This document shows, in pieces, positions 31,900 through 34,571 of a stretch of 37,496 nt of DNA. The notes below the pieces were generated by a model that saw only the letters and a list, made by a program, of their open reading frames with translations, made no database searches and was not told the origin of the DNA. Positions within the stretch are counted from its first letter, which is position 1. Each line of letters begins with the position of its first letter. A program made the position numbers and the translations under genes. Location of the stretch: assembly GCA_030834165.1 (NCBI GenBank), contig JAURFU010000017.1, positions 1 to 37,496 on the forward strand, read 5' to 3'. Source of the DNA: Verrucomicrobiota bacterium. GTDB lineage: Bacteria > Verrucomicrobiota > Verrucomicrobiia > Opitutales > UBA953.

Positions 31900-32015
31900 T
31901 TATGCCAAGACAAGAGGCCTTGGCCTCCTTACGGAAGCCATAAATAGGGTAATCGTCGGCCGAAACGGCCTTCCCGTCTTGCCCCGAGGGGCCGACGACG
32001 TTTGATAAGGGGCGG

Positions 32016-34571
32016 ATGTCTACCACAGCCGAGCGCAAGCGCAACTTCGGGCGCGTTCCGGGCAAGTGGATCGTCCTCGCGGCCTACGTCCTGCTGGTCC
32101 TCGTCTCCCGCTGGGTGACCTCCGCCGATCGTCAGCCCCAGGCCGAGCTGGCTCACAAGGTTGAGTTCCATCAGGTCAGCGCTGCGCAGGTCCGCGACGC
32201 CCTGCCGGTCGTGGTCATCCCCCGTCTGCCGGACGGCGGTCACGAGTGGGACCAGGCCGCCGTCGATCTCGTCAAGACGAACTCCGAGAAGGGGGTGGGC
32301 GACGTCTACGCCGTCCGCTGGCCGACCGCCTACCATCGTTCCCGCCCGACGATGAGCACCGAGCGGGTCGCCGCCGACCTGCTGCGGTCGCTGGAGCCGC
32401 GGATAGGCCGGGGTCGCTTCCATCTCGTGGGCGAGGGCATGGGCGGCATGGTCGCCCTTTCGGTCGCGACCAAGCATCCGGACCGGGTCGCTTCGCTCAC
32501 GCTGATCTCCGCGCCGGGCGCCCAGGAATACACGCTCCTCGGCAATGCCATCGCCAACAAGTTCGTCTACTTCTTCCATCACATCCCCTTCGTCCTGGTG
32601 GATGTCGCCACGCCGCACTTCGGCCTGGCCGACTGGATCCCCTACAACCGCGGCTACTCCGGGGTGTTCTTCGATAGCCATCTGTCCGAGACCAAGGCCG
32701 CTTTGCGCGCATGGGACGGGCCGGCCTTGCTCGTCCATGGTCGTGATGATTGGATCACGCCGATCGACGCCGCCCGCTATTCGGCCAAGCTCATGCCGCA
32801 GGCCCGGCTCTTCGAGGTCGAGGGCGGCCATGGCGCCGAAGCCCCCAAGGACGTGCTGAGTTTCATCGCCTCCGCCGACGCCGGGCAAGCGGCCAGGCGT
32901 CCGGCTCCCGTGCCGGCGACCGAGCCCTATCCGGAACTCGTGGCCTCGGGCGGCGTCCGCTTCTGGATCCTGATGCTGATCCTCATCCTCTGCACCTTCG
33001 TCGCGGAGGATCCGACCTGCCTGGCCGCCGGCCTGCTCGCCGCCGAGGGCATCATCGGCTTCTGGTGGGCCGCGCTGGCCTGCACCGTCGGCATCTTCAT
33101 CGGGGACATGGTCCTCTATTCTTTGGGTCGTTGGCTGGGACGCGGGGCGCTCCGCCGCGCGCCGCTCAAGTGGATCGTGAAGGAACATGAGATCGACCGT
33201 ATGGCCGGCTGGTTCGGTTCCCCGCGCGGCCTGCTCGTGATCGTCAGCTCGCGCTTCATCCCCGCCAGCCGCGTGCCGACGTTCGTCACCGCCGGCATCC
33301 TGCGCCTCGGCCTGCCGCGTCTTTCCCTGCTGCTCTTCACCGCCGCGCTCGTCTGGACGCCGGTGCTCATGCTGCTCGGCGGCACGCTGGGGCCGCCCTT
33401 CATGGAGCAGTTCCCGCGCTACAAGCAGTATGCGGCTTGGATCGTGCTGGGGCTCTTCGCCTTCATCTGGTTCTTCACCCACTGGGTCGTCCCGGCGATG
33501 ACCTGGCGCGGACGGCGCGAGATCGTCATGAAGGTCCGCGGCCTGATGCAGCCTTCGCTCTGGCCGGGCTGGATCCTCTACCTGCCGGTCCGCCTCGGCA
33601 TCGTGCTCCTGAGCCTCCGTCATCTCCGCCTCACGGCGTTCGCCTCCGCCAACCCGGCCCTCGGACGCGTCGGCGGCTTCATCGGCGACGCGAAGTCGCT
33701 CCTGCTCCGTCCGTTCCAGCGTGATTCGCGCTGCTGCCCGACCCTCGCGCTCTCGCTCGAAGACACGCAGGAAGAGCGGGTCAAGGAAGCCGCCGCCTTC
33801 GCGGCCTGCCACGGTTTCCCCGTCGTCTTCAAGCCCGAGGTCGCCGAGGACGGCGCGGGCCTGCGTTTCGTCCATACCCAGGAGCAGCTCGAACGCCTCG
33901 TGCGCGGCGCGCAGGAAGATTTCCTTCTCCAGAAGTTCATCCCGGGCTTCGAGTTCGAGGTCGTCTGGCGCCGCAACCCCGGCAAGGACGACGGCCGCGT
34001 CATGGCCTTGGTGCACAAGCACGACGTCACCGTGCGCGGCGACGGCGAGCAGACGCTCGAGGAGCTGATCTGGCTCGACGAAGTCGCGGTCTCCCGCGCC
34101 AGCCTCTTCCTCCGCTGCCACGCGCGCGACCTCAACCGCGTCATCCCCGCCGGCCAGAAGGTCACGCTCAACCTCACCGGCAGCTACGGCCACGGCGCCC
34201 GCTGCCGTCACCGCGCCGACCTGATCACCGTCGAGCTCGACGCGGCGGTGACCCAGTTCGCGAGGCGTTTCCCGGGCCTGCACTTCGCCCGTTTCGACCT
34301 CCGCGCGAACTCCATGGAGGACCTCAGGGCCGGACGCTTCATCGTCACCGAAATCGGCGGCTGCTGCCACGTCTCCAGTCTCCTCCGCGACGAGTCGCTC
34401 CGTTTCTCCCGTTCCTACGTCGCGGTCTGGGGCCAGCTCAAGGCCTGCCTCGACGCCGGCGCGTCCAACCTGCGTCAGAAAGTCCGCCCCGTGCCGGTCG
34501 AGGAGCTCATGGCCCGCTGGAGCCATGCCCGCGGCCGTCACGACGAATTCGCGGTCAGCGAGGAGCTCTGA
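32016..34571 (+). CDS. Three-part fusion: alpha/beta-hydrolase-like, DedA/VTT membrane and ATP-grasp-like domains
   Basis: The 851-residue protein has one N-terminal span (19-33), then a hydrolase-like domain (about 60-288), a DedA/VTT domain with several spans (about 315-495) and an ATP-grasp-like domain (about 585-815). In the hydrolase domain the nucleophile elbow reads GEGMGG (139-144): Gly141 stands where Ser should be, while the acid (Asp244 or 245) and His272 are kept. The DedA domain has the family loop SRFIPASRVPTFVTAG (412-427). The ATP-grasp part has FPVVFKP (Lys606), QKFIPGFEFEV (640-650) and ARFDLRA/VTEIGG (Asp761, Glu779), with Gly in place of the usual metal-site Asn. The role is unknown; the layout suggests lipid or envelope substrate handling. 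Open and intact throughout. Confidence 0.88.
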   Translation: MSTTAERKRNFGRVPGKWIVLAAYVLLVLVSRWVTSADRQPQAELAHKVEFHQVSAAQVRDALPVVVIPRLPDGGHEWDQAAVDLVKTNSEKGVGDVYAVRWPTAYHRSRPTMSTERVAADLLRSLEPRIGRGRFHLVGEGMGGMVALSVATKHPDRVASLTLISAPGAQEYTLLGNAIANKFVYFFHHIPFVLVDVATPHFGLADWIPYNRGYSGVFFDSHLSETKAALRAWDGPALLVHGRDDWITPIDAARYSAKLMPQARLFEVEGGHGAEAPKDVLSFIASADAGQAARRPAPVPATEPYPELVASGGVRFWILMLILILCTFVAEDPTCLAAGLLAAEGIIGFWWAALACTVGIFIGDMVLYSLGRWLGRGALRRAPLKWIVKEHEIDRMAGWFGSPRGLLVIVSSRFIPASRVPTFVTAGILRLGLPRLSLLLFTAALVWTPVLMLLGGTLGPPFMEQFPRYKQYAAWIVLGLFAFIWFFTHWVVPAMTWRGRREIVMKVRGLMQPSLWPGWILYLPVRLGIVLLSLRHLRLTAFASANPALGRVGGFIGDAKSLLLRPFQRDSRCCPTLALSLEDTQEERVKEAAAFAACHGFPVVFKPEVAEDGAGLRFVHTQEQLERLVRGAQEDFLLQKFIPGFEFEVVWRRNPGKDDGRVMALVHKHDVTVRGDGEQTLEELIWLDEVAVSRASLFLRCHARDLNRVIPAGQKVTLNLTGSYGHGARCRHRADLITVELDAAVTQFARRFPGLHFARFDLRANSMEDLRAGRFIVTEIGGCCHVSSLLRDESLRFSRSYVAVWGQLKACLDAGASNLRQKVRPVPVEELMARWSHARGRHDEFAVSEEL

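Follow-up and report, generated by a model that had tools for sequence, protein, structure and literature searches.

What might a single bacterial polypeptide do that joins a hydrolase, a membrane carrier, and a ligase-like domain? The question is raised by a gene in a 37,496-nucleotide stretch of DNA (the window) from a Verrucomicrobiota bacterium of the order Opitutales, family UBA953 (GenBank assembly GCA_030834165.1, contig JAURFU010000017.1, positions 1 to 37,496 of the forward strand). The frame at 32016..34571 (+) begins with ATG, runs to its stop with zero internal stop codons, and encodes 851 amino acids (aa), in which the open reading frame (ORF), Pfam, and a scan of neighbors place an N-terminal transmembrane helix (TM), an alpha/beta-hydrolase, a DedA/VTT domain, and an ATP-grasp domain. 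A first-pass annotation, made from the letters alone, had claimed both the uninterrupted 851-codon frame and the order of hydrolase, DedA/VTT, and ATP-grasp; the frame stands, and Pfam, a structural model, and fold matches all agree on the order. We give about even chances to the reading that this protein belongs to a VTT/ATP-grasp family for amino-acid membrane lipids, and that here it acts as a translocator with two noncatalytic domains.

One polypeptide under purifying selection

That two or three adjacent genes were fused by an assembly or frame error is scarcely credible. One open frame matching at least 660 of the 851 query residues is present in 33 of 57 related genomes (own included). 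These 33 comprise 30 of the 37 genomes of the genus, the window's own among them, and 3 of the 20 from other families of the order; matches of any extent at E ≤ 0.001 occur in 44 of the 57. Such single-frame homologues, with the parts in the same order, are found in separate genomes and in other Verrucomicrobiota families, which argues against a join. Of 40 loci tested in the window's family, 37 also have the gene beside the same neighbors (metallo-beta-lactamase/ApaG and/or RuvC), and the three exceptions belong to a sister genus. The frameshift or assembly join that the first-pass annotation had allowed for is therefore not seen.

The 851-aa protein is under purifying selection. Against 10 close homologues, the ratio of nonsynonymous to synonymous substitution rates (dN/dS) is 0.039-0.137 for the VTT domain, 0.055-0.399 for the ATP-grasp domain, and 0.157-0.343 for the hydrolase; with the short N terminus and the linker set aside, the hydrolase value exceeds that of VTT in 10 of 10 pairs. 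An AlphaFold2 model based on 44 rows has a mean predicted local distance difference test score (pLDDT) of 87.6 and a predicted template modeling score (pTM) of 0.70, so the domains are well predicted and their mutual placement is less certain; a single-sequence AlphaFold model of the related locus L054 (mean pLDDT 38.4) was discarded. No model among the Pfam and NCBIfam models shown spans the whole architecture, and a protein of this domain order is not described in the literature searched, whose scope excluded subscription papers and preprints. The VTT/ATP-grasp family is thus outside the library models searched here, each single domain family being known, and the domain order that was new to the author of the first-pass annotation has no described family in that literature.

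Transporter residues are kept and key residues of both soluble domains are replaced

The DedA/VTT membrane domain (residues 313-500; 32952..33515, +; delimited from Pfam, residue conservation, and the model) matches VTT_dom (PF09335) at residues 340-455 (E 5.5e-15, 56.4 bits against a cut-off of 33.9), and retains E331, D332, D364, R413, and R419 in 57 of 57 rows. From this conservation and its spacing, R413-x5-R419 (33252..33272, +) is taken to be the Arg pair that DedA proteins carry in their second re-entrant loop. The spacing of 6 is that of YqjA R130/R136 and UptA R112/R118, pairs reported to be important (PMC7818093, PMC11474028), to which R413/R419 probably correspond. For the acidic pair that YqjA has close to its first re-entrant loop, E39/D51, the invariant E331, D332, and D364 are available, with no clear D51 counterpart in a comparison made without residue-level alignment. 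The protein therefore shares with UptA, PetA, and YqjA (PMC11474028, PMC7818093) both the VTT domain and an Arg pair of this type, and differs in being fused to two further domains; the words 'fused' and 'fusion' are absent from the main text of the DedA paper PMC7818093.

The hydrolase (residues 43-291; 32142..32888, +) follows an N-terminal hydrophobic helix (residues 16-34; 32061..32117, +), seen in a TM scan and in the AlphaFold2 model, and is joined to VTT by a linker (residues 292-312; 32889..32951, +) delimited from the dN/dS segments and the model. It is recognized as Abhydrolase_1 (E 9.9e-16, 58.6 bits against a cut-off of 25.8), and residues 43-291 of the model match solved alpha/beta-hydrolases (4uhd, Z 23.4, root mean square deviation 2.7, 220 aligned); VIA-align mostly covered the hydrolase part of the model, and nothing is read into missing VTT or ATP-grasp rows. 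In the alignment, the nucleophile position (residue 141; 32436..32438, +) has Gly for Ser, and the oxyanion His-Gly is likewise changed to Pro-Arg in the window. All 40 rows of the window's family (genus rows shorter than 780 aa or identical being excluded) have Gly at the nucleophile position (G-x-Nu-x-G); these "family" rows, like the 41 counted below for ATP-grasp, include homologues placed by similarity, such as L047, which is almost identical to L129 of another genus. Ser, Asp, and His are all present in 13 of 17 triple fusions of other families, the remaining four being L122-L124 and L057. In loci L122-L124, of family f41, the hydrolase triad has been lost separately; ATP-grasp is intact there, and TANGO2 lies elsewhere in those genomes.

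The ATP-grasp domain (residues 546-851; 33651..34568, +; alignment and profile) has a CPSase_L_D2 match at residues 586-634 (E 6.8e-5, 22.9 bits against a cut-off of 19.8) and retains K606, the GDG at 675-677, R759, D761, and E779. In the conserved, lineage-specific TEIGGCC (residues 778-784; 34347..34367, +) the alignment places E779 at the Glu of the E-x-N motif and G781 at its Asn. This Asn and the Glu following E-x-N are each lost in 41 of 41 family rows and present in 37 of 37 others, and the glycine-loop Arg is lost in 41 of 41 and present in 34 of 37 others. All 37 genus rows, in which the window is counted twice (36 distinct), retain the metal-binding Glu of E-x-N, and 3 of 4 sister-genus rows have lost it; domains covering fewer than 281 profile positions were excluded from all these counts. 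The first-pass statement that all three segments keep recognizable family motifs therefore holds at the level of the families, but not for the catalytic Ser of the hydrolase or the Asn of ATP-grasp. The sister-genus (g22) loci L127, L128, and L130 have ORFs of 1056, 1021, and 924 aa, with ATP-grasp domains also without the metal-binding Glu. A terminal motif, YPx[ST][NDS], is found at the C termini of Proteobacterial ATP-grasps and of one free-standing Verrucomicrobiota ATP-grasp (L058, L061-L066), and is absent from the fused Verrucomicrobiota proteins in alignment A1.

These replacements could mean that the two soluble domains remain enzymes but with altered chemistry, ATP-grasp acting through E779/D761 and the new Cys, Ser, and Arg, and the Gly-nucleophile hydrolase being a lyase, a transferase, or a binding domain. 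We regard this as a serious minority possibility. Almost no variation is seen in the replacement motif TE[VI]GGCCHVSS..RD (T, E, the second G, SS, R, and D in 36 of 36 rows, and each C in 34 of 36), which indicates that it has come under a new constraint and is not decaying freely; alignment positions K97, D255, and E274 are retained in 37 of 37 genus rows, and dN/dS is well below 1. Against it stand the uniform loss across the family of the Asn, the loop Arg, and the following Glu that others keep, the further loss of the E-x-N Glu in most sister-genus rows, and the higher dN/dS of the hydrolase than of VTT in every pair.

Among solved structures, the best match of the ATP-grasp profile is 7ta5, a cyanophycin synthetase (E 7.6e-12; the chain is labeled glutathione synthase in the profile search and cyanophycin synthetase 2 in the Foldseek rows), and among the 50 Foldseek rows shown cyanophycin synthetases rank 2 and 8 and a D-Ala ligase ranks 37. 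The likeness to cyanophycin synthetase ATP-grasps (7ta5, 7txv, 7wae) covers profile positions 75-283, including GDG and E-I-N; the protein differs in being membrane-fused and in lacking the Asn, and it misses the NCBIfam cut-offs for whole CphA enzymes (29.2 against 877, and 22.9 against 850). CphA also has a Mur-ligase-like part, which Pfam did not find in the window protein. A hydrophobic WPxW..Y.P.. segment precedes the ATP-grasp domain (residues 515-545; 33558..33650, +; alignment A1 and model). It is common to the free-standing ATP-grasp members and, judging from its position and the short broken helices of the model, it may form a re-entrant hairpin.

Arrangements of the three parts in relatives

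An ATP-grasp profile from alignment A1, run at E ≤ 1e-15 on 387 genomes sampled across the phylum, finds the family in 39, a few of the matches being fragmentary; in the window's family it is present in 55 of 61 genomes. The fetched Verrucomicrobiota stretches contain 24 triple-fusion loci (L057 included, although the reference search did not recognize its hydrolase part), 12 VTT-ATP-grasp double fusions (two with partial ATP-grasp), and free-standing ATP-grasps at L058, L107, and L109. On plasmids the family occurs in 28 records of only 7 genera, so the Proteobacterial side is thinly sampled; these frames were taken by frame extension, motif-based ORF choice having missed most of them. Paracoccus denitrificans encodes ATP-grasp, alpha/beta-hydrolase, and VTT in three adjacent genes, with VTT on the other strand, and P. 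ferrooxidans repeats the arrangement; Salinivibrio has VTT and ATP-grasp in tandem, and Azospirillum B510 has the two fused. The occurrence of the parts as separate neighbors, in tandem, and as double fusions is Rosetta-stone evidence that the three work together. In Azospirillum thermophilum (L070:5255-6912), by contrast with the B510 fusion, the annotation assigns VTT and ATP-grasp to two genes that overlap in different frames. The contigs of L026 and L037 belong to records named Polynucleobacter meluiroseus and Akkermansia muciniphila, which are probably misnamed bins.

Gene neighbors point to aminolipids

The neighbors of the VTT/ATP-grasp family point to aminolipids. Of the 15 Verrucomicrobiota loci that lack the hydrolase, 9 have an OlsB-, OlsF-, or Gls-like acyltransferase in the fetched flanks, against 0 of 24 triple fusions (Fisher p = 2.4e-5). 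These flanks range from ∼1 to 8.5 kb per side, such that "none nearby" is not uniform; the broken copies L133 and L134 were left out of adjacency tallies. At L110, OlsA-like, OlsB, VTT-ATP-grasp, and TANGO2 genes run on one strand with overlaps or gaps of at most 28 bases, and at L058 the gene adjoining the free-standing ATP-grasp is OlsF-like (370.8 bits against a cut-off of 620). Acyltransferase neighbors on plasmids are OlsF in Vibrio and OlsB in Variovorax, with none at the other five plasmid loci searched (10 were fetched; L067, a near copy of L064, L069, which is hydrolase-only, and L070 were left out of neighbor counts).

PF13444, the acyltransferase domain of OlsB, OlsF, and GlsB, is present in 31 of 39 ATP-grasp-positive genomes versus 171 of 348 others (p = 3.1e-4), and by genus in 24 of 26 versus 88 of 171 (p = 6.7e-5), in tests uncorrected for phylogeny and from genome-list overlaps tallied by hand. 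Triple-fusion genomes thus mostly carry the acyltransferase elsewhere; within the window's family, 48 of 61 genomes have PF13444. Broken or partial copies of the module lie at L131, L132, L133, and L134 in genomes G423, G174, G128, and G275, of which G174 has PF13444; it was not found in the other three. The Variovorax plasmid locus (L066:8054-8893) has ATP-grasp, then an OlsB-like gene and, judged by eye, a frame reaching to 10098 that resembles the lysophospholipid transporter LplT; at L107:12022-12876 a separate alpha/beta-hydrolase, whose start resembles a signal peptide by eye, stands near a free-standing ATP-grasp and an OlsF-like gene.

Through its linkage to OlsB/OlsA/OlsF-type genes, the module has one of its closest known counterparts in ornithine-lipid synthesis (OlsBA, OlsF, OlsH/OlsI). 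OlsI is an alpha/beta-hydrolase fold acting in the ornithine-lipid pathway (PMC12493201), although the window hydrolase scores only 24.7 against its NCBIfam cut-off of 385. OlsH, of the GH3 type, was considered as the missing N-acyl ligase of the window's family and rejected, GH3 being found in just 1 of its 61 genomes.

These neighbors also bear on a different proposal, an UptA-like polyprenyl-phosphate flippase fused to a D-Ala-D-Ala-type cell-wall peptide ligase, which we consider improbable. UptA is indeed the best NCBIfam match of the protein (E 1.4e-14), the structural and profile searches both include D-Ala ligases among their matches, and D-alanine--D-alanine ligase is the name given to members in some plasmid records. 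The UptA score, however, is 54.7 bits against a cut-off of 250, cyanophycin synthetases outrank D-Ala-D-Ala ligases in the profile search, and the recurrent neighbors are OlsB/OlsA/OlsF-type and TANGO2 genes. Undecaprenyl phosphate, a substrate that the first-pass annotation had raised, draws no support from the neighbors found; with that below-cut-off UptA score behind it, it was set aside as prime substrate.

TANGO2-like genes accompany most intact modules

Pfam identifies TANGO2 (PF05742) in 6 of 10 neighboring proteins scanned, five of which touch the VTT-ATP-grasp gene, the other being 0.9 kb upstream. With a TANGO2-like profile (A3) built from eight module neighbors, and counting matches within 2.3 kb on the same strand, a TANGO2-like neighbor is present at 12 of 13 intact-triad triple fusions versus 1 of 12 degenerate-hydrolase loci (p = 3.3e-5; the window row, L001, has a 1.5-kb flank), and at 26 of 39 loci outside the window's family. 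The hydrolase-lacking Verrucomicrobiota loci have one in 10 of 15 cases and the plasmid loci in 3 of 7, with profile seeds making up 6 of these 10 (found by Pfam) and 2 of these 3. The TANGO2-like gene is directly upstream, often touching or overlapping, at L054:5206-6111, L110:9631-10506, L112:6662-7390, and others.

PF05742 occurs in 26 of the 387 genomes, 20 of the 39 that are ATP-grasp-positive versus 6 of the 348 others (p = 8e-18, likewise uncorrected, the overlaps re-checked by computation). The corresponding counts with A3 are 27 of 39 versus 8 of 348, which are biased because A3 was built from the module's own neighbors; the PF05742 count is independent. In the window's family TANGO2 was found in 0 of 61 genomes.

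The structure of human TANGO2 has led to its proposal as a cysteine N-terminal nucleophile (Ntn) hydrolase, with Cys2, Asn25, Asp27, and Asn157, acting on fatty-acid derivatives (PMC13044924). All 20 aligned TANGO2-like proteins keep Met-Cys-Thr and Asn-Arg-Asp-Glu, and so share with the human protein the proposed catalytic Cys, Asn, and Asp. Elsewhere the function of TANGO2 is described as unknown and its role in heme biology as disputed (PMC12782551). The module could serve heme handling, a role proposed for bacterial TANGO2 homologues, its lipid-gene neighbors being incidental, since a bacterial TANGO2 homologue has reportedly been found to bind heme (Han 2023, cited in PMC12782551); we think this very unlikely, however, because the linkage of the module is to acyltransferases, and because the human structural work finds heme binding to be nonspecific and proposes the Ntn-hydrolase (PMC13044924). 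No paper among the matches listed joins TANGO2 with DedA, ornithine lipid, ATP-grasp, VTT, or olsF. TANGO2 is a human disease protein, and gene runs of the L110 type, which connect a VTT lipid transporter with an enzyme of the peptide-ligase type, with TANGO2, and with synthesis of the ornithine-lipid type, offer a small genetic system for seeking its substrate.

A probable translocator derived from a proposed aminolipid module

In the ancestral module, as in other Verrucomicrobiota families and Proteobacteria, OlsB/OlsA or OlsF would make an acyloxyacyl aminolipid, and a cytosolic ATP-grasp ligase related to cyanophycin synthetase would link an amine to a carboxylate, either on a small molecule or on the head group of the lipid. 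Transport of the lipid across the inner membrane would then fall to the VTT domain, and a periplasmic alpha/beta-hydrolase, fused or separate, and the TANGO2-like Ntn-type protein might trim the lipid or return it for reuse. The window's family retains the VTT residues but has other residues at the hydrolase nucleophile and at the ATP-grasp Asn, and TANGO2 is gone; the protein is therefore most likely a lipid translocator in which the hydrolase and ATP-grasp would serve as binding or gating domains. The domain architecture, its conservation and selection, the replaced residues, and the linkage of genes are observed, whereas substrate, transport direction, catalysis, and topology are inferred. 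The family amounts to a natural experiment, with both enzymes altered, the transporter residues kept, and TANGO2 lost. Of the envelope-lipid machine envisaged by the first-pass annotation, the lipid connection gains from the OlsF/OlsB/OlsA-type and TANGO2 neighbors, but the substituted catalytic residues speak against an active three-enzyme machine here.

We infer that the hydrolase lies on the periplasmic side and the ligase inside, from the Lys/Arg counts around the first TM and from the ATP need of ATP-grasp. The counts before and after this TM are 5/1, 4/0, 2/0, and 2/1 in four relatives.

Several observations weigh against an aminolipid translocator. With 3 Lys/Arg before the first TM and 2 after it, the window protein shows only a weak charge bias, and in L055 (1 before, 2 after) the bias runs the other way; the annotated Paracoccus hydrolase has neither an N-terminal TM nor a signal peptide, with Arg aligned at the His position. 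Flanks without an acyltransferase are found at 6 of the 15 hydrolase-lacking loci as well as at all 24 triple fusions. PF13444 was not found in any of the 8 genomes covered in the sister genus g22, each of them ATP-grasp-positive, nor in the ATP-grasp-positive G312 or in the window's own genome, which is 81% complete and whose close relatives have it. The lack of phylogenetic correction in the PF13444 and TANGO2 co-occurrence tests counts in the same direction. Finally, some ATP-grasps, among them PurK and PurT, do without the Asn, so its replacement in the window's family need not mean that catalysis is lost.

A close functional parallel may be the lysyl-phosphatidylglycerol synthase-flippase LpiA and its genetically linked periplasmic hydrolase AcvB/VirJ, in which synthesis takes place inside, the lipid is flipped, and the amino acid is removed outside (PMC13135905). 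The logic of a cytosolic synthase, a flippase, and a periplasmic hydrolase is similar, as an analogy of parts only. LpiA/AcvB differs in using a lysyl-tRNA donor where an ATP-grasp stands here, in being encoded by separate genes, and in that the hydrolase is altered in the window's family; the flippase fold of LpiA is also different from VTT.

Aminolipids with two-part head groups, serine-glycine and taurine-ornithine, have been described (PMC12493201). They are attractive candidate substrates. No assigned ligase is known for head groups of the dipeptide or taurine type. A more specific and rather doubtful proposal is a vectorial lipid-amide cycle on one polypeptide, in which ATP-grasp would form an amide on an aminolipid, VTT would flip it, and the outer hydrolase and an inner TANGO2 would cut it; bacterial and human TANGO2 would then hydrolyze or transfer fatty-acyl amides, and the window's family would be a translocator with two pseudo-enzyme sensors.

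History and surroundings of the locus

In the window's family, trees of residues 110-490 and 515-848 conflict with strong support. Identity between the window and L012 proteins is 36% over the hydrolase, 61% over VTT, and 85% over ATP-grasp, with the switch near residue 500, although the genes flanking L034, which encodes the same protein type as L012, are 71-93% identical to those of the window. The conflict of the trees, and the divergent halves despite similar flanking genes, suggest that recombination at this conserved syntenic locus gave one lineage a different hydrolase-VTT half. Conflicting histories of the hydrolase-VTT and ATP-grasp halves are seen in comparisons of the window with L012, L022, and L034.

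Of the nine neighboring genes scanned in the window, none is an obvious partner. The gene is divergent from apaG and convergent with ruvC, and is thus apparently transcribed alone. An antisense open frame of 870 aa at 31929-34541 (-) mirrors the gene and is most likely a high-GC shadow rather than a gene.

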